Positions 5,792-16,222 of a stretch of 64,000 bases of DNA are shown one piece after another. Under the pieces are notes generated by a model. That model saw nothing but the letters and a program-made list of their open reading frames with translations, was not told where the DNA came from and ran no database searches. The stretch comes from Rhizobium sp. WYJ-E13. Lineage in GTDB: Bacteria; Pseudomonadota; Alphaproteobacteria; Rhizobiales; Rhizobiaceae. The stretch's first letter is position 1. Every line of letters begins with the position of its first letter. The stretch is from NCBI RefSeq assembly GCF_018987265.1, contig NZ_CP076853.1, positions 124,001-188,000 of the forward strand, read 5' to 3'. The position numbers were made by a program, and so were the translations under genes.

Positions 5792-7285
5792 CTAATGCGA
5801 GGCGGCTTCGCTCGCCGCACCTCCCGCACCTTTGCTCTTCACCCCGCGGCCGATCGGAATGAGCCAGGTGGTCGCAAAGGTCAGCACCGCTACCACGACG
5901 ACGCCCCAGAAGCTCCAGTGGAGCGCCGCATCGAAAATGCCGCGCACCGTCGCATCGCCGGCGAGCTCCGAAAGGCCGGTCGGCTCGTTCAGGACATGAT
6001 GCAGGCGGTTTGCCACATCCCCCGTCGCATAGTGACTGATCCCGGCGTTGAGGATGGCGCCGAGCACGGTGGCGCCGAGCGTATTGCCGAGGCTGCGGGC
6101 AAAGATGATCGAGGCCGTCGCACTGCCGCGCATCGACCATTCCACGCTGTCCTGCACCAGCGCGATGCTGGTGAGATTGATGAGCCCCATGCCGAAGCCC
6201 ATGAAGAAGGAACCGGCGCCGGCGACGGCCGGATGGCTGTCCGGCGACAGGAACAAGAGGAAGAAAGCGCCGAAGGGGAACATGAAGCTGCCGACCCGCA
6301 GCGTATTGCGGATACCGAATGCCCTGAAGAAGCGGCTGGACAGCATCACCGACAGCGGCCAACCGACCACGAGCATGGTCAGCGTGAAGCCGGCCACGAT
6401 GGGCGAGCGGCCGAGCACGCCCTGCACATACATCGGCAGGATCGTCGAAAGGCCGATCAGCGCCATGCCGGCAAGCAGCATGCAGGCGTTGCTGGTGGCG
6501 ACAAGCCGCCGGCTCCAGAGCGCGATGGAAATGATAGGCTCCGGCGTGCGCCTTTCCTGCAGCACGAAAAGAATGCCGGTCACGACGAAGACGATCGCCA
6601 GCGCGATGAGGATCCAGGCCGGCGCATTCGTTTCCGTCAGGATCGTCAGGAGCGCGATGATGGAAATCGAAAACAGGATGGCGCCGAGATAGTCGATCCT
6701 GGCATTTTTGTGCGCCAAGTCCTCTTTCAGGAAGAGCAGGAAGGCGATGATCGAGAAGATGCCGATCGGCAGATTGATCCAGAAGATCCAGGCCCATGAG
6801 ATGGTGTCGACGATGATACCGCCGGCAAGCGGCCCAACGACCGCCGAGGTCGCCCAGACGGTCGCCATCACGCCCTGCACCTTGCCGCGTTCCTCCAGCT
6901 TGAACAGGTCGCCGATGATGGTCATCGTCACCGGCTGGATCGCGCCGGCCCCCAGGCCCTGCACCAGACGGAACACGATGAGCGAGGCCATCGACCAGGC
7001 AAGCCCGCAGAAGAGTGAACCGACGAGGAAAACCAGGATGCCGCCGATCAGCACCGGCTTGCGGCCGAAAATATCCGAGAGCTTGCCGTAGATGACCGTG
7101 GTCGTCGACTGCGCCAGCAGGAAGGCGGAAAAGACCCAGCTGTAATAGGTGAAGCCGCCGAGCTGGCCGACGATCCGCGGCATGGCGGTCGCAACGATCG
7201 TGGCCTCGATCGCCACCATGAAGGTCGCGAGCATGATCGTCGCAACGACGAGCGTGCGGTTGGATTGCGTCGATGGTGCGGACAT
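5792..7285 (-). CDS. MFS multidrug exporter, DHA2 (EmrB/QacA) type, 14 TM
   Basis: 497 residues with about 14 predicted membrane segments. The N-terminal pattern LATFMVAIEATIVATAMPRIVGQLGG is the conserved motif D1-like start of DHA2 transporters, and GKLSDIFGRKPVLIGG is MFS motif A between TM2 and TM3. RLVQGLGAGAIQPVTMTIIGDLF (motif B/C region) also fits drug/proton antiporters. No membrane-fusion partner (EmrA) lies nearby, so it may act alone in the inner membrane. Converges with the GntR gene with 64 bases between. Substrate unknown. Confidence 0.9.
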   Translation of the reverse strand: MSAPSTQSNRTLVVATIMLATFMVAIEATIVATAMPRIVGQLGGFTYYSWVFSAFLLAQSTTTVIYGKLSDIFGRKPVLIGGILVFLVGSLFCGLAWSMASLIVFRLVQGLGAGAIQPVTMTIIGDLFKLEERGKVQGVMATVWATSAVVGPLAGGIIVDTISWAWIFWINLPIGIFSIIAFLLFLKEDLAHKNARIDYLGAILFSISIIALLTILTETNAPAWILIALAIVFVVTGILFVLQERRTPEPIISIALWSRRLVATSNACMLLAGMALIGLSTILPMYVQGVLGRSPIVAGFTLTMLVVGWPLSVMLSSRFFRAFGIRNTLRVGSFMFPFGAFFLLFLSPDSHPAVAGAGSFFMGFGMGLINLTSIALVQDSVEWSMRGSATASIIFARSLGNTLGATVLGAILNAGISHYATGDVANRLHHVLNEPTGLSELAGDATVRGIFDAALHWSFWGVVVVAVLTFATTWLIPIGRGVKSKGAGGAASEAASH

Positions 7286-7634
7286 GATGAACCTTTCGGA
7301 GCTTTCTCCGTGGCGAGAAAACTGCTCTCGGCTGGCAGGGCAGCTGCAACGCGTGATGTCGGCAGTTCTTTTATGCTCCTGCTGATAGCAGGTAAAGCGC
7401 AGGTGACAGGCTTTCTTTTGTGTCGAGGCTTAAACTGCTTCCGGCCCTGGCGAATTTAAAATACAAGGAGGAAAAGAGATCTGACAGGCTGCGATCCGGC
7501 AGTTTGCCGGGGCTCTCGGATGTCAGGATTGCATTTCCGCCAGGTTATTCCCAACTGAAGATCTGATGCAGGCCTGTGAACCGCTCCATCGCGGGTGCGA
7601 AGGGTTCCGGATCCGGGCACGGAAATGGCGAGAT
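7286..7634. other. Intergenic region between divergent MFS and glycosyltransferase genes
   Basis: About 350 bases without a convincing gene. It should hold both divergent promoters. An isolated strong Shine-Dalgarno-like AAGGAGG at about 7467 is not followed by an open reading frame of any length. Confidence 0.5.
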
Positions 7635-8477
7635 ATGATGGCGCATGTTTTGGCTGCGAGCGGAGGCGTTAAACAGGTAATCTGCATCAATTGGGGTACG
7701 AGATACGGGCCGACTTTCATCAACCGGCTCTATGCGATGGTGGCACGCAACATCACGCCGCCCTTTACCTTCACATGCTTCACCGACTGCCGGGACGATC
7801 TCCACCCCGGCATCCTGTGTGAGGATCTGCCGCCTCTGGATGTCGAAATGCCCGTCAATACGAGGGGCATCTGGCCGAAGGCGAGGCTTTGGGGACCGAA
7901 GCTCGGAAGCCTGAGCGGGCCGGTCCTCTATCTGGACCTCGATCTTGTTATCGTCGCCTCCCTCGATGACTTTTTCGAAGTCGGAGGCCCTGACGACGTC
8001 GTCATGGCCCGCAACCAGACGACGCCTTTCGAAAGGCTCGGCCAGAGCTCGCTCTTTCGCTTTCCGGTCGGCAAGCTCCTGCCGCTGCAGGAAAAGTTCA
8101 GGGCCGATCCGCAGAAAGTGGCCGATGAGTATCAGTACGAGCAGCGTTTCGTCACCCGCAATGCGCCCGGCGGCGTGAAATTCTTCCGACGAAACTGGGT
8201 TCTGCATTTCCGGCAGGACTGCCACTGGGCCTTTCCGCTGAACTATTTTCTCGCCCCCCGCCTGCCGTCCAGCGCCCGCGTGGTCCTCTTCCCGCGCGGC
8301 TTCCACCCGCAGAACGCCATCGACGGGAAATTCGGCCCGAAAGGCCGCGCCGAAACGAGGCTCGCTCATATCAAGGGCGTCTTCGATGCCAGCAAACGCA
8401 ACGGCAAGGCGCCCTTCCGCTACCTGCGCCACTATATATTGCCGACACCCTGGGTGGCCGACCATTGGCATGAGTAG
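7635..8477 (+). CDS. Glycosyltransferase-like protein with DxD motif
   Basis: 280 residues starting at one of two adjacent ATG codons (7635/7638). The pattern is that of a small nucleotide-sugar transferase: an N-terminal VICINWGTRYGPTFINRLYAMV strand-helix, TFTCFTDC, KARLWGPKL and the metal-binding DxD in LYLDLDLVIV, followed by FFEVGGPDDVVMARN. It has no signal peptide or membrane segment. Similar proteins occur singly in rhizobia; the acceptor is unknown, and surface polysaccharide decoration is only a guess. It stands alone, followed by an unrelated exported protein. Confidence 0.65.
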   Translation: MMAHVLAASGGVKQVICINWGTRYGPTFINRLYAMVARNITPPFTFTCFTDCRDDLHPGILCEDLPPLDVEMPVNTRGIWPKARLWGPKLGSLSGPVLYLDLDLVIVASLDDFFEVGGPDDVVMARNQTTPFERLGQSSLFRFPVGKLLPLQEKFRADPQKVADEYQYEQRFVTRNAPGGVKFFRRNWVLHFRQDCHWAFPLNYFLAPRLPSSARVVLFPRGFHPQNAIDGKFGPKGRAETRLAHIKGVFDASKRNGKAPFRYLRHYILPTPWVADHWHE

Positions 8478-8555
8478 GAACGTTAATTTCGGATCGCAGC
8501 GGAACAATTTCCCGCCTTGAATGTTGTCGGCTGAGGAAAACTCCTGGGTGCTACC

Positions 8556-9059
8556 ATGCGTCCTCTTCTATGCGCAGCATTGCTCTCGCTCACCGGTCTC
8601 GCCGCCGGCGCAAACGCTTCCGAGGCGGATTTTCTCAATTCGCTGGAGGGTGACTGGCGCGGAAGCGGCATGGTCCTGGCCAAGATCGGCGGCATGAAGG
8701 TCAACGTGTCCTGCAATCTGAAATCCGACGCGAGCGCCACGACAGTTGCGATGAACGGCAATTGTCGCGGTCTCGCCGTCCTTACAAGAAGCTTCTCGGC
8801 AAATGTGAAGGCGGCCGGTCAACGCTACACCGGCAACTACACGGGACCATCGGGCCAGCCTTCCAGGCTTGTCGGCAGCAGGAAAGGCGACGCTCTCAAC
8901 TTCAATGTCACCTGGGCGCGCGTCACCAATGGCGACAGAAGCGCCATCATGATGATCGAAAAGGTGGGCCAGAACGGGCTTCGCCTGCAGACCGTCGATC
9001 GCGACCTTGCCTCGGGCCGGTCGGTAGTGACGAGCCGCATCGATCTGCAGCGGCAGTGA
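8556..9059 (+). CDS. Exported protein of unknown function (lipocalin-like barrel possible)
   Basis: 167 residues. A clear Sec signal peptide (MRPLLCAALLSLTGLAAGANAS, cleavage near residue 21) precedes a small beta-rich domain opening with LEGDWRGSGMV, a pattern seen at the start of lipocalin-like barrels. Cys residues in SCNL and GNCRG could form a disulfide in the periplasm. I do not recognise the family. Notably, the last 32 bases of this gene (9028-9059) recur with two mismatches at 10352-10383, evidence that a second copy once existed 1.3 kb downstream. Confidence 0.7.
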   Translation: MRPLLCAALLSLTGLAAGANASEADFLNSLEGDWRGSGMVLAKIGGMKVNVSCNLKSDASATTVAMNGNCRGLAVLTRSFSANVKAAGQRYTGNYTGPSGQPSRLVGSRKGDALNFNVTWARVTNGDRSAIMMIEKVGQNGLRLQTVDRDLASGRSVVTSRIDLQRQ

Positions 9060-9369
9060 CTGCCGAGATCGCCACCGCGAACGGACGTCTCGGGAGGCGG
9101 TTAGCGATGCCGCTACGGCATCCCCTCCACTTCAGCCCCGTGAACGTGTTCGAGGAATGATCGCAGGACGTGCTTGGTGCTTCAACTTTATCCTGTGCTC
9201 GCAAACGTCGCATTCAGGATTTAGCACGCGGAATAAGCGATTTGTTAACGCGCAAAATTCAAAGTTGTGACAACTAATGTCTCGTATCTAGGTTGCTCAG
9301 GCATGATGCCCCAAGCTCTTCCGTGCCGCGAATTCCGATGGAGGAAGTTCCGGTACCAGAGGAACGAAA
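9060..9369. other. Intergenic region before the 9370 gene
   Basis: About 310 bases with no credible coding sequence. The part from about 9180 is AT-richer and presumably holds the promoter of the downstream gene. No recognisable operator or repeat was seen. Confidence 0.4.
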
Positions 9370-10083
9370 ATGACCGCGATCTCTTCAGGCAACAATGCGG
9401 CACTGCTCATCCTGCAGCAGACGAACGCATCGTTGCTTCCCAACAAACAGCAAGCCGGGAAATCGGCTGCCGACACTATCGCAGCCATCGCTAACGGCGT
9501 TTCCAGTCAAACGAGCGCCGTAAAGACCCAGGCCTCATCGACAATCAACAGCGCGTTGCTCGACGTCAAGGAGAGCAACGACGGGATTGTCTCGAGCGCG
9601 CTCGATTTCCTGGATTCGGGCAACTTCAAAACCAGCGATGCCGGTGTTACCGACGTCATCAAGAAGCTCATCAATGACGATGGGGACAAATTTGCCTCGC
9701 TCGTTAAAGCCGAAAAGGCGAAGAATCCCAGCATCAGCGATGACAATGCGATCGCCAATGCCATTCAGCGCCTGATCCGGGACAACAGATCCAAGTTCGG
9801 TGACGGCGAATTCGTGATCGGCTTCAAACTTGGAAACGGTGGCAAGATCATCTCGAACATCGAAGACAAGAATGGAAACAGCACCAGCAAGACCCTTATG
9901 GCTGGATTTCAGGCGGCCCATTCCTCGGTGATCGAGGCGGCGAAGATCATCAGCAGTTCGGATGGTAGCAATACGGATGAGTTGAAAACGGCATCCGCAA
10001 TGCTGACCAACAGCAATTTTGGCGAAGCCTTGAACGACGTGGCGGCTTGGAACGACAAGTGGCTGAATGCGTTCGGCTTTTGA
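9370..10083 (+). CDS. Uncharacterised soluble protein, 237 aa
   Basis: 237 residues with a good start (GAGGAACGAAA before the ATG). There is no signal peptide or membrane segment. The N-terminus (SSGNNAALLILQQTNASLL) is rich in Ser, Asn, Ala and Gln, and the body is an acidic, helix-rich sequence with many Asp, Asn and Ser, somewhat like secreted or surface proteins that leave by a signal-peptide-independent route. I do not recognise the family. A strong hairpin terminator follows at 10114-10140. Beyond it lies a fragment of what looks like a type I-secreted repeat protein, so the locus may once have had a secretion theme (inference). Confidence 0.6.
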   Translation: MTAISSGNNAALLILQQTNASLLPNKQQAGKSAADTIAAIANGVSSQTSAVKTQASSTINSALLDVKESNDGIVSSALDFLDSGNFKTSDAGVTDVIKKLINDDGDKFASLVKAEKAKNPSISDDNAIANAIQRLIRDNRSKFGDGEFVIGFKLGNGGKIISNIEDKNGNSTSKTLMAGFQAAHSSVIEAAKIISSSDGSNTDELKTASAMLTNSNFGEALNDVAAWNDKWLNAFGF

Positions 10084-10113
10084 GGCCGATTATAATCCTG
10101 ATATCTGTAAAGA

Positions 10114-10147
10114 GGCCCAGATCCAACATCGATCTGGGCCGATTTCG
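10114..10147 (+). terminator. Hairpin terminator after the 9370 gene
   Basis: A perfect 10-bp stem (GGCCCAGATC at 10114-10123, GATCTGGGCC at 10131-10140) with a 7-base loop lies 30 bases past the stop codon. The following tract (GATTTCGTT) is only moderately T-rich. Confidence 0.65.
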
Positions 10148-10158
10148 TTCAGAGCCGC

Positions 10159-10337
10159 TTATGCAAAAAGCAGATCGGAGCCATCGATCGCGGACGGAGA
10201 GACGCCGTTCAGGAGCGCGTAGGTATAGTGTGCGCTTCCATCGTCGAACTCCAGGAGTGCCGAACCGCCGGAGTTGTAGAGATTCACCAGCGTGACGGAC
10301 GAGCCAACGACGATTTTGTCGATACCGTCGGCCCCGC
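10159..10337 (-). pseudogene. C-terminal fragment of an RTX-like secreted protein
   Basis: On the minus strand this stretch reads GADGIDKIVVG...LLEFDDGSAHYTYALLNGV...IDGSDLLFA and stops at 10159. The ending resembles C-termini of type I-secreted calcium-binding repeat proteins. The frame continues upstream only through sequence that belongs to a different, opposite-strand fragment (10352-10383), and no start codon or ribosome site fits. It is therefore best read as the truncated tail of a lost gene. Family assignment is by appearance only. Confidence 0.45.
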
Positions 10338-10351
10338 ATTGCCGTCGGCGC

Positions 10352-10383
10352 TGATGAGCCGCATCGACCTGCAGCGGCAGTGA
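10352..10383 (+). pseudogene. Remnant of the 3' end of a paralogue of the 8556-9059 gene
   Basis: These 32 bases match 9028-9059 at 30 positions, keep the same reading frame (SRIDLQRQ) and end in the same TGA. Sequence identity stops abruptly on the 5' side, where the opposite-strand RTX-like fragment begins. It marks a recombination junction at the left border of the accessory island. Confidence 0.6.
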
Positions 10384-10487
10384 AGGCCGCCTGGGCTCGG
10401 CCTGTATCGCGTTGAAATACATCGCGTTTATTATCAACAACTGTCGTCGCGCATTCTACCTCTGATCGGAAGCTTAGAGGAATGAGC

Positions 10488-10721
10488 ATGACTGGCAAGA
10501 CAATCCCCTACACACTTTTAAGTACGAGCGACGTTCAGAAGATTGCGCCGGTTTCGAACGTGACGCTCTGGCGCTGGGTGCGGGACGGCAGGTTTCCCGC
10601 TCCCATACGGGTGGCGAAAAACAATTTCTGGCGGTCCGACGAAGTTGGCGCCTGGATGGATGAAATGTCCTTGAGGCGCGCTGCGTCAAATCCGAAAGCC
10701 CCTTCTCAGGAACGCGAATAG
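10488..10721 (+). CDS. AlpA-like helix-turn-helix regulator
   Basis: 77 residues from the second ATG (10488), which has AGAGG at a spacing of 7; the ATG at 10482 is too close to it. The sequence LLSTSDVQKIAPVSNVTLWRWVRDGRFPAPIRVAKNNFWRSDEVGAWMDEM is a textbook AlpA/MerR-like excisionase-type DNA-binding domain: strand, HTH with a Trp-Arg-Trp recognition helix, then a wing. Such proteins regulate or assist excision of P4-like satellites and integrated elements. It lies 32 bases before the primase-helicase gene, so the two are probably co-transcribed. Confidence 0.82.
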   Translation: MTGKTIPYTLLSTSDVQKIAPVSNVTLWRWVRDGRFPAPIRVAKNNFWRSDEVGAWMDEMSLRRAASNPKAPSQERE

Positions 10722-10753
10722 GCGTCGGCCTCCCCAGTTTCATCGGAAAATCC

Positions 10754-13246
10754 ATGGATAGAATCTCGCAATACGCGCCGTCGCCGGCGGCGGGCGTCTC
10801 AGGCTGCGTCGAACGGCTGCGCCGCGACGTGTCCCTGTCTTCGACAGCGGCGCAATACGGCTGCAGGCTCACCCGCAACGGGCAGGAGTTTTCCGCCTGC
10901 TGCCCCTTCCACACCGAAGACACCCCGTCATTCACGATCTTTGCCGGTCAGGATGGCGTCGAGCGCTTCCATTGCTTCGGCTGCGGCAGGAAAGGCGATG
11001 TCCTCGACTTCGTACAGGAGGTCAGGGGCGTCGATCTTGCCGAAGCGATCCGCATTCTCGGCGGCCGCGACGACATCAAGCCAAACGTCCCTCCGCGCCA
11101 GATCCAGGCGCGCAACATCTATGAGGGGATAGTGCCTGTTCCGCCGCCGGCTGACTTGCTCACGCCCGGTGTGCGCATCACGCTCTATAATCCGAAACGC
11201 GGGGGGACGCCCTCGCAGTGGGGCACCTTCGCCCCATCGATGGTGTTTCCCTATCGACATGCCGACGGCTCCCTTCTCGGCTATGTCCTGCGCCGCGATC
11301 TGCCTGATGGCGGCAAGGAGACGCCGATGGTCATGTTCGTTCGCCTCCCCGATGGCAAGGAGACCTGGTCGCGTTTCCCCTTCCCGAAGCCGCGGCCGCT
11401 CTACGGCCTCGAAACGATCGGTGACCGGAGCCAAATGGTGATCGTCGAAGGCGAGAAGTGCCGCGATCGGCTCAGCCAGGCGAGCGGGCAAACCGTCGTC
11501 TCCTGGCCGGGCGGAACCCAGGGCGTAAAACACACGGACTGGTCGCCGCTCTCGGGTCGGCACGTGCTGATCTGGCCGGATTTCGACGGCCCGGGCCTGA
11601 CGGCTGCCGATGATATCGCCGCCCGCCTGACCGCCATCGGCGCGCATGTCCAGTGCGTCGGCTTCACGGATGCGGCGCACGCTTCCGATATCGAGCGCTA
11701 CCGTTTCGACGATTGGCGGGCCGGCCTTTTTCCATGCCGCGGCTGGGACAGCGCCGATGCCGTCGATGCCGGATGGACGCAAAGTCAGCTTGACGCTTTC
11801 ATGGCTGCCACGCTTCGCGACTGGATACCGGAGCCCGTTGCCGAGATGCCAGTTGCCGAGATGGAAGAGGGGCGCGTCGTGCAGTTCAAGCGGACAGTTT
11901 CCGTGCAGGCCTTCATAAGCGCACGTCCCGCACCGGTCGCAGATGCGTTCACCCAAGACCCGGATGCGTTCGAAGACGATGAGCCGACGCCGGCGATCGC
12001 GCCTGCCGGGGAGGCACCCCGACGTTCCGGCCGCCTGATGGGCATCGCGCGCTTCGATATCGAACTCGAACAATGGCTGGTTGATCGCCAATGGTTCATC
12101 AAGCTCAACCTGCTTTCGGGCGAGTTGGAGATCCATCGCAACAGCGGCATCGTTGCCATGAGCGACGCACGGCTGGCGGAAATTCGCTTCGAGCTCGCCC
12201 GCGCGCAGGGCAGGGAGCCGTCCAAGGACAACATTTTCGATGCCCTGGCGCTGATCGGCGAGCGGCGGGCCTATCATCCGGTGCACGACTATCTCGCCCG
12301 TGTCAAATGGGATGGAAAGCCGCGCATCGACACCTGGCTCGTCGATTATTTCGGCGCCGAGGACACGCCCCTCAACCGCGCCTTCGGCCGCAAGATCCTC
12401 TGCGCCGCCGTTCGCCGCGTCAGGCATCCGGGCTGCAAATTCGATCACATGCTCGTCGTCGAAGGCCCCCAGGGCATCGGCAAATCCTCGGCCATCCTGG
12501 CGCTCTGCCATGACAGCGACTGGTTCACCGACCAGCTCGAAATCGGCGCCGACGCCAAAGTGACCATCGAAAAAACCGCCGGCCACTGGATCCTGGAAAT
12601 GCCCGAACTCGACGGCTTGAGCCGCCGCGACACCAACCGCGTCAAATCCTTCATCCCCACGCAGAAAGATATCGCCAGGCTCTCCTATGGCCGCTTTCCG
12701 ACCAGGCGCAAACGGCAATTCGTCCTCTTCGGCACTACGAACGAAAGCCGCTACCTGACCGACACCACCGGCAACCGCCGCTTCTGGATCGTCCGCGCCA
12801 CGGCCGCTGATCCCTCCGGCATTGCGGCGGTGCGAGACCAGCTATGGGCGGAGGCTGCCGAGAGGGAGGCGGGTGAGGATATTTCTCTGCATGATCAGGC
12901 ATTGCGGAAGGCAGCGGCCGGCGTTGCCCATGAATCCTCGGATTTCGGGCCGTGGCTGGAAATCCTTGGCGAGCGCATTCCGGAAGGCCCGCTGAAGATC
13001 AAGGCCACCGATGTCTGGAAGCTCGTCGGCTTCGATGGCCCGGAAACCATCAACAAGCTGACGAAGGCTCATCACGCCCATATGCGCGCGGCGATGACCG
13101 GCCTTGGGTTTGAGAAGAGGGACAACGGCCTTCGCTTTCGCGACGGCGAGAAAAAGGCCGCTTACCTTCGCGGCGATGCGGAGGAGGCGAAGGAATGGAG
13201 CCCTGACAGGCCTGAGCCGGCCTATAGTTACGGTTCGATTTTCTAA
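10754..13246 (+). CDS. Primase-helicase fusion: CHC2 zinc finger, Toprim-like, VapE-type P-loop ATPase
   Basis: 830 residues. Residues 45-90 form a CHC2 zinc-binding primase domain (C50, H53, C74, C77). Residues 228-281 look Toprim-like (MVIVEGEKC with Glu, then VLIWPDFDGPG with two Asp). After an acidic linker, residues about 490-720 match the virulence-associated E (VapE/VirE) superfamily-3-like helicase: VKWDGKPRIDTWL, Walker A GPQGIGKSS at 571-579, Walker B region WILEMPELDGL at 612-622, and the conserved FVLFGTTNESRYLTDTTGNRRFW. This is the replication protein of phage satellites and integrated elements. Preceded by an AlpA-like gene and followed by a terminator and an array of repeated motifs. 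Confidence 0.88.
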   Translation: MDRISQYAPSPAAGVSGCVERLRRDVSLSSTAAQYGCRLTRNGQEFSACCPFHTEDTPSFTIFAGQDGVERFHCFGCGRKGDVLDFVQEVRGVDLAEAIRILGGRDDIKPNVPPRQIQARNIYEGIVPVPPPADLLTPGVRITLYNPKRGGTPSQWGTFAPSMVFPYRHADGSLLGYVLRRDLPDGGKETPMVMFVRLPDGKETWSRFPFPKPRPLYGLETIGDRSQMVIVEGEKCRDRLSQASGQTVVSWPGGTQGVKHTDWSPLSGRHVLIWPDFDGPGLTAADDIAARLTAIGAHVQCVGFTDAAHASDIERYRFDDWRAGLFPCRGWDSADAVDAGWTQSQLDAFMAATLRDWIPEPVAEMPVAEMEEGRVVQFKRTVSVQAFISARPAPVADAFTQDPDAFEDDEPTPAIAPAGEAPRRSGRLMGIARFDIELEQWLVDRQWFIKLNLLSGELEIHRNSGIVAMSDARLAEIRFELARAQGREPSKDNIFDALALIGERRAYHPVHDYLARVKWDGKPRIDTWLVDYFGAEDTPLNRAFGRKILCAAVRRVRHPGCKFDHMLVVEGPQGIGKSSAILALCHDSDWFTDQLEIGADAKVTIEKTAGHWILEMPELDGLSRRDTNRVKSFIPTQKDIARLSYGRFPTRRKRQFVLFGTTNESRYLTDTTGNRRFWIVRATAADPSGIAAVRDQLWAEAAEREAGEDISLHDQALRKAAAGVAHESSDFGPWLEILGERIPEGPLKIKATDVWKLVGFDGPETINKLTKAHHAHMRAAMTGLGFEKRDNGLRFRDGEKKAAYLRGDAEEAKEWSPDRPEPAYSYGSIF

Positions 13247-13265
13247 CGGGCACCGTCACCCTGAC

Positions 13266-13291
13266 AACCCGGCCACCGAGCCGGGTTTTTT
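13266..13291 (+). terminator. Intrinsic terminator of the primase-helicase gene
   Basis: An 8-bp perfect stem (AACCCGGC at 13266-13273, GCCGGGTT at 13280-13287) with a 6-base loop runs into a T6 tract (13286-13291), 20 bases past the stop codon. This is a classical rho-independent terminator. Confidence 0.85.
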
Positions 13292-13308
13292 ATGTCCTGG
13301 GGTATGAC

Positions 13309-13574
13309 GAACCCCCTCCACCGAACCCCGTCCGGGCCTGGAACCCCGTCCATCAACGGCAGATTCTGGACGGGGTTCATGGAGGTGGAGGGTGTATGGA
13401 CGGGGTAACGCCAGCCGGTTTAGGCGGTTGATTTGAAAAGATTATCTTCTTCTGGATGGGGTGGATGGGGTTGTTTGCTGAAAGGTATCGGAAACGGGTT
13501 ATGCCGGCTTGTAAACGGCGAAATACAGGGTGTTTCCGGCGACTCTTGGAAACTGCGTTTTAACCCCGTCCACC
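13309..13574. repeat. Iteron-like array of (GA)ACCCCGTCCA motifs on both strands
   Basis: Repeated motif family: 13309-13320 (variant ACCCCCTCCA), 13323-13333, 13341-13352, then inverted at 13367-13378 and 13397-13406, degenerate inverted copies (TGGATGGGGT) at 13453-13471, and a direct copy at 13562-13572. The copies at 13341-13352 and 13367-13378 form a perfect 12-bp inverted repeat around a 14-base spacer. The array occupies an otherwise gene-free stretch after the replication gene, so an origin or multi-site operator is likely (inference). Confidence 0.65.
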
Positions 13575-13717
13575 GCCTCCACGGATGAATGGCGCGGTTT
13601 TGATGATGCTACCGGATAGTACCAGCCTGCGGAGCGCAATAAGTAGCGCTGAAAATTTCTAGTATGCGTTCATCGGATGCTGTACGCGGTGGTTCTGATC
13701 AAGTTTCGGAGGATGCG

Positions 13718-14521
13718 ATGACGATTGCCGTCGTATGGCTAGAGGATGATGGTTTGTGGTGTGTTTCTGACACGCGAATTAGCAGACGCGGCCAGGGTGG
13801 CGGAGTACAGATCGTCACCGATGCCGGAGCTAAAATTTACCCCTTGAACGTGGAATGTCGCTTACTAACCGTTGAGAGGGAGCTCTACTACGGCCGCCGC
13901 TACGGGATGGTTTTCGCTGGGATGACCGCGGTTGCGACCCAGACGTTCGCCACTCTCTCAGGTATGTGCCAAGCCCTTCAGGGGGCTTCGCGTCAAGATA
14001 TTCCATCGCTGCGCGATGTAGCGACGCTTTTATCTAAACTGGTTGAGCTCTATGTGAGAGATTTTAGGGCTTCTACCACCTTGGCAGATCCCGGTGTTAT
14101 CGAAATCCTCTTGTTCGGGATGTGTCCCGTTTCAAGAAGCTATGAGATTTGGAGAGTTTCAGATCAGATCGTTGAAGGTTCCCTGCATGTCGCTATCGAT
14201 CAGCAGCCCGCGAGAACAGGCGATGTCGTCGCGATAGGAAGCCAAGTCTCACGGTTTCAAGAAATTCTCGCCGAGCTAAAACAGAAGACAGAAAACACTT
14301 TTCGCCTTCCCAAAATTGCTGTGGGACAAATGGCTGACGCAAGCCGAGGAGACGTAGGGGGAGCCGTTTCAATCGGAATTTGCAATCAATTTGGCTTCCA
14401 GACCTATTGGTCACTGGGGCTGACGCCTCATGGGCAAGGCGCTCGCCTAATGTTTGGCGTTGATCTCGATGACATTGGTTGGGTTGGCCCAGTAGTCATA
14501 TCAGGAGGCGGGATGGCTTGA
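13718..14521 (+). CDS. Proteasome-like Ntn hydrolase (N-terminal Thr), function unknown
   Basis: 267 residues from the ATG at 13718, which has CGGAGG at a spacing of 5; the frame's earlier ATG (13664) does not. After Met removal the chain would begin TIAVVWLEDDGLWCVSDTR, matching the first strands of HslV and proteasome beta subunits: Thr1, then Asp17 in the VSD turn, then Lys38 in AKIYPL as the likely counterpart of the catalytic Lys33, then YGMVFAGMTAVATQTFATL like the FAGGTADAFTLF segment of HslV. The chain is longer than HslV (about 175) with a C-terminal extension. No HslU-like ATPase is adjacent. Coding sequence is visibly lower in GC than its neighbours. A threonine-type hydrolase is inferred from motifs only. 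Confidence 0.6.
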   Translation: MTIAVVWLEDDGLWCVSDTRISRRGQGGGVQIVTDAGAKIYPLNVECRLLTVERELYYGRRYGMVFAGMTAVATQTFATLSGMCQALQGASRQDIPSLRDVATLLSKLVELYVRDFRASTTLADPGVIEILLFGMCPVSRSYEIWRVSDQIVEGSLHVAIDQQPARTGDVVAIGSQVSRFQEILAELKQKTENTFRLPKIAVGQMADASRGDVGGAVSIGICNQFGFQTYWSLGLTPHGQGARLMFGVDLDDIGWVGPVVISGGGMA

Positions 14522-14557
14522 GGGGTTCAACACAACCTGAGTATGAAGGAGTTTGCG

Positions 14558-15154
14558 TTATCCAGTTTTATCGAAAGCATTGAAGAGCTCTCCAAGGAAT
14601 GCGAGATCGACCAGCTTTCTAATCGCCGGAGCATTAGGATACTGGAAGTGTGATAGTCCCAAAGGCCCGTAGCCATTTCTCAAAACTTGCGGGTTGTTTG
14701 AAATGCGATCGATGAGGTGTGCTGTAGAAGGGAAGCAAAGATCAAGTTTGGCCGAGGAATAGCCGGTTTCGCCGTCTTTGAGGCCATATCGAAAGACGAA
14801 ACCTCGGTGCGCCTTTTCCATCGCCAGTATGCACGATGCTTCCCCCGCGTCGATCTGCAAGCCCTCCGCGATAGCCCTCGCCAGGAGAATTCGAAGACTG
14901 TGCGAGCGGGATAACTTATCGTATTGCGTGCTTGTTATATTTCTCCGCAGAAAGTGCTTGAGAGATAACTCCATGGAGTGGCTGAGGAGATGGCAGATCG
15001 GGTCATTTAGCATAATCTCCCTCGGAGCGTTCTCCCAGGCAAGCCTTGCCGTGTGCCAGAACTGCACGGCGAGTATCATCTCGCGCCATGAGTTCTTGGA
15101 AGGCACGGAAGGAATTTCGATATTGCTATTTCCTGATGAGGCAAGGCCGCTCAA
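14558..15154 (-). CDS. HEPN-like protein, partner of Abi-alpha gene
   Basis: 198 residues. The start appears to be a TTG at 15154-15152 overlapping the TGA of the upstream gene (TTGA), implying coupled translation; the next in-frame ATG is 25 codons later. The core ICHLLSHSMELSLKHFLRRN ... LSRSHSLRILLARAIAEG matches the helical pattern of HEPN proteins (a conserved Glu-Leu-x-Leu-Lys followed by His-x-Leu). The canonical RNase motif R-x4-6-H is not evident, so ribonuclease activity is uncertain. Rhizobial intact protein with no signal peptide. It ends 36 bases from the convergent proteasome-like gene. Confidence 0.55.
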   Translation of the reverse strand: MSGLASSGNSNIEIPSVPSKNSWREMILAVQFWHTARLAWENAPREIMLNDPICHLLSHSMELSLKHFLRRNITSTQYDKLSRSHSLRILLARAIAEGLQIDAGEASCILAMEKAHRGFVFRYGLKDGETGYSSAKLDLCFPSTAHLIDRISNNPQVLRNGYGPLGLSHFQYPNAPAIRKLVDLAFLGELFNAFDKTG

Positions 15155-15816
15155 TCGCCGTTACTCCATAGATCCCTAGTCGCCTCCCCCAGCCTCCGCA
15201 GCAGCCTCGTGGCGGTGTATTCCGCTTTGCCAACGGTAATGGTAAGGCGGCTGCCAACATTGCTCTTGGCAACGATGTATTGAACAGTGTCGTCGTCATA
15301 ATCGAAAAGACCAATGACTTCCATTCTGTCGAGTGCCGACGTGAGTTCGCTTTCCGACGCTTCAAAATCGCTGCTCACAAGGTCACCGACTGCGCGGCTG
15401 AAGACGATTCTCAATATTGGCCAGTCTGATGGTTCCAGGCGTCTGATCACATCGATCAACAAACGATCTGGGTGGGGCATCTTCGGATTGATCGCATTTT
15501 TGATGTACTCCGCCCACACGTCCTGCAACATGTCATCGCTTTCGTCAGCAATTGCATCGTACACCTGCACTCCAATTCGAGGGTCGAGCTGACGGGTGTT
15601 CCCCGCAAAGCGGGCTCTTTTAATTGCCGCTTGAGTCTTTTCCACGACCCGCATCCGATTTCGCATACGATATCCCGCCATACTGTCTTCGAACGCACCG
15701 CCCAAATGACGAAATCCTCCACCGAACACCTGATCCAGCCAACCTCCAGCTTTTTCGGCTGTCTCTAGGGACTTTTGGCCTAGTTTCGCTAATTCCTCGA
15801 TCGACCTATCAGTCAT
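15151..15816 (-). CDS. DUF4393 / Abi-alpha-like protein
   Basis: 221 residues from the ATG at 15816 (CAGGGATTAACA upstream; the in-frame extension to 15852 lacks a site). The middle part, DESDDMLQDVWAEYIKNAINP followed by MPHPDRLLIDVIRRLEPSDWPIL, fits the DUF4393 pattern of abortive-infection alpha proteins, in which a charged helix (E-x2-L-x2-M-W-A-x2-L) precedes HP-x-FV-x2-L-x-L-x3-D. The N-terminus has a Gly-rich amphipathic region (GGWLDQVFGGGFRHLGGAF) that could contact membranes. It overlaps the HEPN-like gene by 4 bases. Members are associated with phage-exclusion loci; role here inferred. Confidence 0.65.
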   Translation of the reverse strand: MTDRSIEELAKLGQKSLETAEKAGGWLDQVFGGGFRHLGGAFEDSMAGYRMRNRMRVVEKTQAAIKRARFAGNTRQLDPRIGVQVYDAIADESDDMLQDVWAEYIKNAINPKMPHPDRLLIDVIRRLEPSDWPILRIVFSRAVGDLVSSDFEASESELTSALDRMEVIGLFDYDDDTVQYIVAKSNVGSRLTITVGKAEYTATRLLRRLGEATRDLWSNGD

Positions 15817-16146
15817 TGTTAATCCCTGTATGTATCGAACTCGACTCGACAATCATATTCATCCGATCATCGGTTTCAGCGCTCAGGAAGCGATTAGAAG
15901 TGCGAGAGCCAATGAGCTATATAACAACTCGGCCGCGATGACAGGCTGGAGAAAATCTGGCAGCTCGAAAGTCGTAATTTTCCTCTGCCTCCATGCAATA
16001 GCTGGTATAGAGGCGGCGATTTGAGTTGGGGTGCTGCAGTTCACAAACTCGTGAATCCGCCCATACTACGCACTCAGAGGTGGATAGGAAGCATTCAGAA
16101 ATCGATTTTTCTAAAATAATTTCAGGACGGCATCAAAGAGAAAAAA
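15817..16146. other. AT-rich intergenic region between Abi-alpha gene and tRNA-Thr
   Basis: About 330 bases. It should contain the promoter of the Abi-alpha/HEPN pair. A short plus-strand frame (15830-16024) lacks a ribosome site and family features. I found no copy of the tRNA 3' end here or elsewhere in the island that would serve as the second attachment site. Confidence 0.4.
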
Positions 16147-16222
16147 TGGTGCCGCTTACGTGACTCGAACACGTGACCCCATCATTACGAATGATGTGCT
16201 CTACCGACTGAGCTAAAGCGGC
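16147..16222 (-). tRNA. tRNA-Thr (anticodon CGT)
   Basis: 76 bases including an encoded CCA. Acceptor GCCGCTT pairs with AAGCGGC, D-stem GCTC/GAGC, anticodon stem CATCA/TGATG around the loop TTCGTAA (anticodon CGT, reading ACG), and T-arm with GTTCGAGTC. A run of six T follows the CCA directly (16146-16141), serving as terminator. The 3' end faces the accessory island, the usual arrangement for an element integrated into a tRNA gene. Confidence 0.97.

Follow-up and report, generated by a model that had tools for sequence, protein, structure and literature searches.

A predicted stand-alone proteasome-like threonine hydrolase among apparently exchangeable genes beside a tRNA in Rhizobium sp. 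WYJ-E13

The window analysed here, a 64,000-nucleotide stretch of the genome of Rhizobium sp. WYJ-E13 (contig NZ_CP076853.1, positions 124,001 to 188,000), contains a gene whose product is probably a stand-alone threonine-type N-terminal nucleophile (Ntn) hydrolase of the proteasome-like superfamily, free of any ATPase partner and carried as accessory cargo by mobile DNA. The evidence is computational: the protein has a predicted proteasome-type fold and conserved active-site residues, its relatives are patchily distributed, and many of them are found in mobile settings. The conserved columns of Thr2, Asp18, Lys39 and Gly68, together with the predicted fold, indicate that the observation is not due to chance.

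Predicted fold and active site

The features of the gene are as follows.
13718..14521, plus strand: proteasome-like Ntn hydrolase gene, 267 amino acids, starting Met-Thr (from the open reading frame, relatives and predicted fold).
13708..13712, plus strand: Shine-Dalgarno-like GGAGG, 5 nt upstream of the ATG at 13718 (from the sequence).
13721..13723, plus strand: codon of Thr2, the predicted nucleophile, Thr1 after Met removal (Thr in 70 of 71 aligned sequences).
13769..13771, plus strand: codon of Asp18, corresponding to proteasome Asp17 (Asp in 77 of 78).
13832..13834, plus strand: codon of Lys39, predicted equivalent of proteasome Lys33 (Lys in 75 of 77).
13919..13921, plus strand: codon of Gly68 in a FAG motif, predicted equivalent of the oxyanion-hole Gly47 (Gly in 79 of 80).

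An alternative in-frame ATG is listed for this open reading frame (ORF) at 13664; the one at 13718 is the likelier start in view of the GGAGG upstream of it. Sequence searches of Pfam, PHROGs, PADLOC and NCBIfam returned nothing significant for the window protein (best E 0.15-0.2). The Pfam cut-off of PF00227 (Proteasome) was not reached by the family, one of whose 45 members matched at E 0.29 and the window protein not at all, and searches of PDB sequences with the protein and with the A1 profile gave chance-level matches and no proteasome. Because sequence-only detection failed, a structure-based route was taken. The predicted model of the window protein has a proteasome beta-like Ntn core, with the alpha-beta-beta-alpha architecture by which the original prediction was to be judged. 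Foldseek matched it to the Anbu entry 5nyw at E 2.2e-6, and identity to 20S proteasome beta subunits was 10-19% among the matches listed. HslV was not among the 50 VIA matches listed, which carries no weight against HslV. The model has helices at residues 70-84 and 98-120 and none between strands 21-24 and 30-34; past residue 207 it has only a four-residue helix (250-253). In BFVD, Foldseek identified 16 viral proteins with this fold at E <=0.001, some of them from Vibrio and Gordonia phages and most without a name or function.

A search with the window protein yielded seven proteins, a profile of those yielded 22, and a 19-sequence profile yielded 55; the two profile searches scored only the approximately 8000 candidates sharing most words. 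The union, including the window protein, comprises 72 sequences (P0001-P0072), none with a precomputed Pfam domain, and 11 further relatives taken from loci brought the aligned set to 83. Outside this set are two Vibrio copies (L014 and L042, in which the Thr is present with no ATG before it), L104 (a later find that has the Thr, Asp and Lys) and every Escherichia coli record except L016 and L037. The residue counts given here refer to the 83-sequence alignment, in which 11 sequences were trimmed by hand to a Met-Thr start; the remaining sequences at each position are gapped, because they are fragments or come from gene calls that start too late, and P0069 is also gapped at Lys39 and Gly68. 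Thr is residue two in 60 of the 83 sequences as used, and Trp7 is kept in 71 of 71. The only exceptions at Thr2, Asp18, Lys39 and Gly68 are P0069, P0025 and P0026, which are seemingly chimeric, fragmentary or misaligned and were kept in the counts. All four positions are among the 15 columns that are at least 95% conserved in the 68 sequences of at least 240 amino acids, and a diverse set of 13 members from alpha-, beta- and gammaproteobacteria shows no variation at the Thr, Asp and Lys. Arg20, which we take to be the counterpart of proteasome Arg19, is replaced by Lys, Cys or Glu in divergent members.

For the proteasome, a survey of the superfamily describes Thr1, Asp17 and Lys33 as the catalytic triad and Gly47 as the oxyanion hole (PMC8665760). 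The register of Lys39 with Lys33 is suggested by conservation and by a weakly scoring hhalign alignment with presumed Anbu proteins (PF00227 matches assigned by length and motif), and the equivalence of Gly68 with Gly47 by motif and order. The original prediction had the chain begin with Thr after loss of Met, with Asp at position 17, Lys at position 38 in an AKI context (residues 18 and 39 when Met is counted) and the segment YGMVFAGMTAVATQTFATL in the place of the FAGGT of HslV and proteasomes. These residues are where it put them, the segment is present in the translated ORF, and the conservation of Thr2, Asp18 and Lys39 in homologues, chosen beforehand as a check, is borne out. With the predicted fold, this conservation supports the Ntn hydrolase reading that the prediction had advanced.

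Its remaining claims about the gene also stand. The protein is approximately 90 amino acids longer than mature HslV (171-173 amino acids in six of 25 sequences, trimmed at Thr). Its G+C content is low (0.526), with a third-position value (GC3) of 0.515, below all nine other window genes computed: 0.588 and 0.560 in the two minus-strand neighbours and 0.675-0.838 in the other seven. Among eight window proteins scanned with Pfam there is no HslU-type unfoldase, and the nearby P-loop gene encodes a VapE-type primase-helicase.

Distribution and genomic settings of relatives

The closest relative with an organism name, from Ensifer sp. 22564, is 45% identical. Of 100 near relatives, only the window's own genome has the hydrolase; it was found in three of 397 genomes of the order (one very partial), three of 394 of the family and three of 289 from the phylum as a whole (one of them partial). 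Each of these counts includes the own genome; in a second family, whose count does not, the hydrolase was found in four of 391 genomes (two partial). A search of 5426 complete E. coli genomes with the plasmid copy as query gave DNA matches in 42. Six records are near-identical over the whole query and 36 fall in a 60-80% identity band; the 34 listed of these 36 share the first 252 query bases at 74.6%, and the protein from one of the 36 is 60% identical to the plasmid-borne protein.

Fourteen distinct settings were compared, with near-identical copies counted once and partial hits excluded (G282, G1107, G1177 and G1239 as too partial). Nine lie on mobile DNA, next to a recombinase gene or in a variable slot flanking a tRNA; four of the nine are mobile by selection, because they were drawn from a plasmid collection. 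In the window, the hydrolase gene is cargo beside a tRNA. In E. coli it occupies a prophage end with tail-fibre genes, adjoining an integrase in L016, L040 and L093 and torT in L038, L039 and L092, and elsewhere it lies between conjugation genes of an integrative and conjugative element (ICE), with the same neighbours in all four loci examined of the 36. A 200-amino-acid hypothetical gene precedes the hydrolase in L038, L039, L040, L092 and L093 (approximately 6917-10567), and a 410-amino-acid hypothetical gene follows it in L038, L039 and L092; neither gene has a Pfam match in its plasmid copy (L016).

On Vibrio conjugative plasmids, the hydrolase gene lies between PDC-M27 genes and a cyclic oligonucleotide-based antiphage signalling system (CBASS; cyclase and Cap15), with SLATT and the UG17 reverse transcriptase (RT) beyond. 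In one of these plasmids (L014, 5955-5975), a Shine-Dalgarno-like AAAGGAG precedes ATC ACT (Ile-Thr) in place of the ATG ACN of other relatives, so that either ATC serves as a rare start or the start codon has been lost; in the sister record L042 the gene annotated at that place is only 534 bp long. An Acinetobacter conjugative plasmid carries a relative with an RT, IS3, a zeta toxin and a PDC-S53 fragment, a mobilizable Azoarcus plasmid carries one beside an annotated alanine racemase, and a Ruegeria plasmid typed as non-mobilizable carries one beside a recombinase and DUF3800. Among genomes, G591 has a relative beside tRNA-Glu, in a slot that is unaligned in four of four sister species, where it holds 1.2-1.3 kb of other DNA (one of the four was inspected directly); in G1075 the neighbours are genes for a resolvase and an MmeI-like type IIG enzyme. 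In G355 (L024, 7058-9155), the gene of a HipA-family kinase lies upstream of a distant relative on the same strand, with 37 bp between the two, an arrangement found in this one distant relative only.

The variable region and its neighbouring element

Around the hydrolase gene, the window contains the following features.
9060..16140: variable region (homology with two sister genomes ends at 9059-9064; all five resume at 16135-16145).
10482..10721, plus strand: AlpA/excisionase-like regulator of the neighbouring element (matches below Pfam cut-offs).
10754..13246, plus strand: CHC2 zinc finger and VapE primase-helicase of the neighbouring element (family-library matches).
14558..15154, minus strand: HEPN-fold protein, 198 amino acids, convergent with the hydrolase (modest predicted model).
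15151..15852, minus strand: Abi_alpha-like protein, 233 amino acids, overlapping the HEPN-fold start (PF14337, E 2.4e-5, 24.9 bits against a cut-off of 29).
16147..16222, minus strand: tRNA-Thr (CGT), right border (same tRNA in L043-L046).

Five sister genomes were compared with the window. On the left, alignment runs to 9059-9064 in two of them and to 7264 in another two, and the fifth (L047) aligns on the right only; all five align again from 16135-16145, at the tRNA-Thr. The proposed tRNA-bounded island is borne out as a variable region adjoining one tRNA at its right. Sister genome G033 (L043) has an AlpA/VapE element 86-90% identical to window positions 10399-13607, followed by different cargo that includes a fatty-acid hydroxylase gene. 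Part of window 9208-10144 is on the opposite side of its element; a relative of the 237-amino-acid gene at 9370-10083 is found there. Of the AlpA region, G027 retains only 120 bp (79%), and neither G012 nor G009 has a match. The hydrolase, HEPN-fold and Abi_alpha-like genes thus seem to be cargo that can be exchanged.

Six proteins of the variable region were scanned and none was recognised as an integrase, and no direct repeat of at least 14 nt (11-nt seeds) involves the tRNA at the right border. A 31-nt near-repeat with two mismatches is found at 9029-9059, where the gene at 8556-9059 has its 3' end, and at 10353-10383, directly before the AlpA/VapE element (mean of 0.00 matches in 100 shuffles). 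It looks like an attachment-type duplication, as from insertion at the 3' end of a gene.

The HEPN-fold and overlapping Abi_alpha-like genes are probably a two-gene operon. The predicted fold of the former resembles HEPN proteins, as had been proposed, in a model of modest quality; its conserved residues read H-x5-R-Y, and the usual HEPN motif is R-x4-6-H. The proposed Abi-alpha resemblance of the latter exists but falls below the Pfam cut-off. Among 150 relatives, counting the own genome, three have the HEPN-like gene and one the Abi_alpha-like gene. Neither was noticed in the ORFs beside other hydrolase relatives, which were inspected by eye with no search run.

Proposed activity, alternatives and known systems

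From the predicted fold, the conservation of the Thr-Asp-Lys-Gly set and a chain that begins Met-Thr, we expect Met removal and amide hydrolysis by a threonine nucleophile. Host methionine aminopeptidase would remove Met1 and expose Thr1, with no propeptide; Thr1, tuned by Asp17 and the Lys33-like lysine, would attack an amide bond, and the Gly47-like glycine would form the oxyanion hole. Since there is neither a dedicated ATPase nor a propeptide, the substrates would be small, unfolded or specific: we infer that the hydrolase works independently of ATP, its target probably being a peptide, an unfolded polypeptide or a single specific protein. A role in conflict between genetic elements is conjectural; the gene would be kept on mobile DNA probably for its effect on such conflict (defence, superinfection exclusion or toxin control). 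We put forward only tentatively the bolder idea of a one-gene proteasome-type threonine peptidase that serves satellites, prophages, ICEs and plasmids as weapon or shield in element-phage conflict, without an ATP-driven unfoldase.

Several points weigh against the interpretation of the hydrolase as a proteasome-like enzyme carried by mobile DNA. Aligned by hhalign, the family profile (66 of 83 sequences) matched presumed Anbu (six of 10 fetched loci) weakly, at E 0.0079 and a probability of 5%, and HslV (25 of 31 loci) at E 0.054 over 19 columns, and the putative active site is known here from sequence and predicted fold. No constant partner gene was seen beside the relatives. In four of the 14 settings (G508, G1165, L003 and G1325; loci L019, L020, L003 and L104), no mobile or defence gene was recognised in the ORFs, which were judged by reading and not by family libraries, and a defence or toxin-antitoxin gene lies within approximately 5 kb in five of the 14, a raw count from those neighbours that were scanned or read, without a background rate. 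Three pattern scans of viral contigs gave 38, 1 and 129 stretches, none confirmed by tblastn, and a phage collection searched with P0010, L016 and L024, not with the window protein itself, yielded no relative. A viral origin was rejected on these searches, and a structural or packaging role in phages is therefore unsupported; prophages are nonetheless able to carry the hydrolase, as the copies at E. coli prophage ends demonstrate.

The hydrolase could instead be a defence effector: acting as a one-gene system or in the manner of a toxin, it would counter phages by degrading, once triggered, a protein of the host or of the phage. The defence genes of the Vibrio plasmids (PDC-M27, CBASS cyclase and Cap15, and the UG17 defence-associated RT with SLATT), the MmeI-like type IIG enzyme and resolvase of one relative, the RT and PDC-S53 fragment in Acinetobacter, the HEPN-fold and Abi_alpha-like genes of the window, and the prophage-end and ICE cargo of E. 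coli are consistent with this possibility. It is nevertheless doubtful, given the five of 14 settings noted above, the lack of a PADLOC model matching the window protein, and neighbouring CBASS and defence-associated RT pairs that seem complete without the hydrolase. A housekeeping-type clearance protease, as proposed for BPH, spread incidentally by gene transfer, is unlikely: some relatives lie among ordinary genes, such as the annotated alanine racemase and neighbours read by eye as carB, a glutathione-reductase-like gene and cysN/cysD, but the distribution is very patchy, extending to none of the 100 near relatives other than the own genome, and the tRNA-Glu slot of G591 holds other DNA in its sister species.

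Even less probable is a specific ligase or processing enzyme in which a Thr1 acyl-enzyme formed with one partner protein is transferred or cleaved. No ATPase partner was seen, and connectase demonstrates that family members can be monomeric ligases; however, the helical S3/S4 insertion of connectase is missing from the model, and helices of the H1/H2 type, absent from connectase, are present in it (PMC8665760). A catalytically dead structural or antitoxin-like subunit, for which the inactive fold of proteasome alpha subunits (PMC8665760) and the HipA gene 37 bp before one distant relative could be cited, is very improbable, as the Thr1, Asp17, Lys33 and Gly47 equivalents are kept across members only approximately 20-30% identical.

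The proteasome-like enzyme proposed here differs in several respects from characterised systems. HslV has a Thr nucleophile and an Ntn fold, which the hydrolase has in common with it, but the hydrolase is longer, the own genome has a separate HslV-like protein, no HslU gene was found among the eight window proteins and the HslV profile was not matched. The six presumed Anbu proteins start Met-Thr and read SD[ST]R, and hhalign aligns their Thr, Asp, Arg and Lys with those of the family; the hydrolase model, however, lacks the long C-terminal helix H5 of Anbu. Unlike connectase, the model has no two-helix S3/S4 insertion and has the helices at 70-84 and 98-120. On these features, identity with HslV, Anbu or connectase was rejected. 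In contrast to 20S proteasome beta subunits, the hydrolase has no propeptide, no second proteasome-like gene beside it and an extra C-terminal tail.

By predicted fold and catalytic residues, the lineage belongs to the proteasome-like superfamily, for which Fuchs, Alva and Lupas (2021) described 22 new subfamilies and considered many more likely (PMC8665760). Stand-alone proteasome homologues without ATPase partners are thus already known, and that survey reports neither a suggestive genomic context nor AAA+ partners. As described there, those subfamilies (GPH, DAH and others, compared by description and not by sequence) resemble the hydrolase lineage in their beta-like core, Thr1/Asp17/Lys33/Gly47 pattern, narrow and patchy distribution, lack of a propeptide in most cases and lack of a co-occurring ATPase. 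The phage homologues PPH and AAH of the same survey have a mobile life style in common with it, and the 16 BFVD proteins have its fold, although no sequence match was confirmed in phage or viral collections. Two phage papers note that phage genomes contain a proteasome-like or BPH gene, with no tested role in the passages concerned (PMC7289586, PMC8953757), and searches of the open-access literature brought up no paper that treats proteasome homologues as defence factors, subscription papers and preprints being outside the search. The hydrolase lineage supplies the genomic context that the 2021 survey lacked, being mobile, cargo-like and several times among anti-phage genes, and this setting makes the purpose of stand-alone proteasome homologues directly testable, including in E. 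coli.
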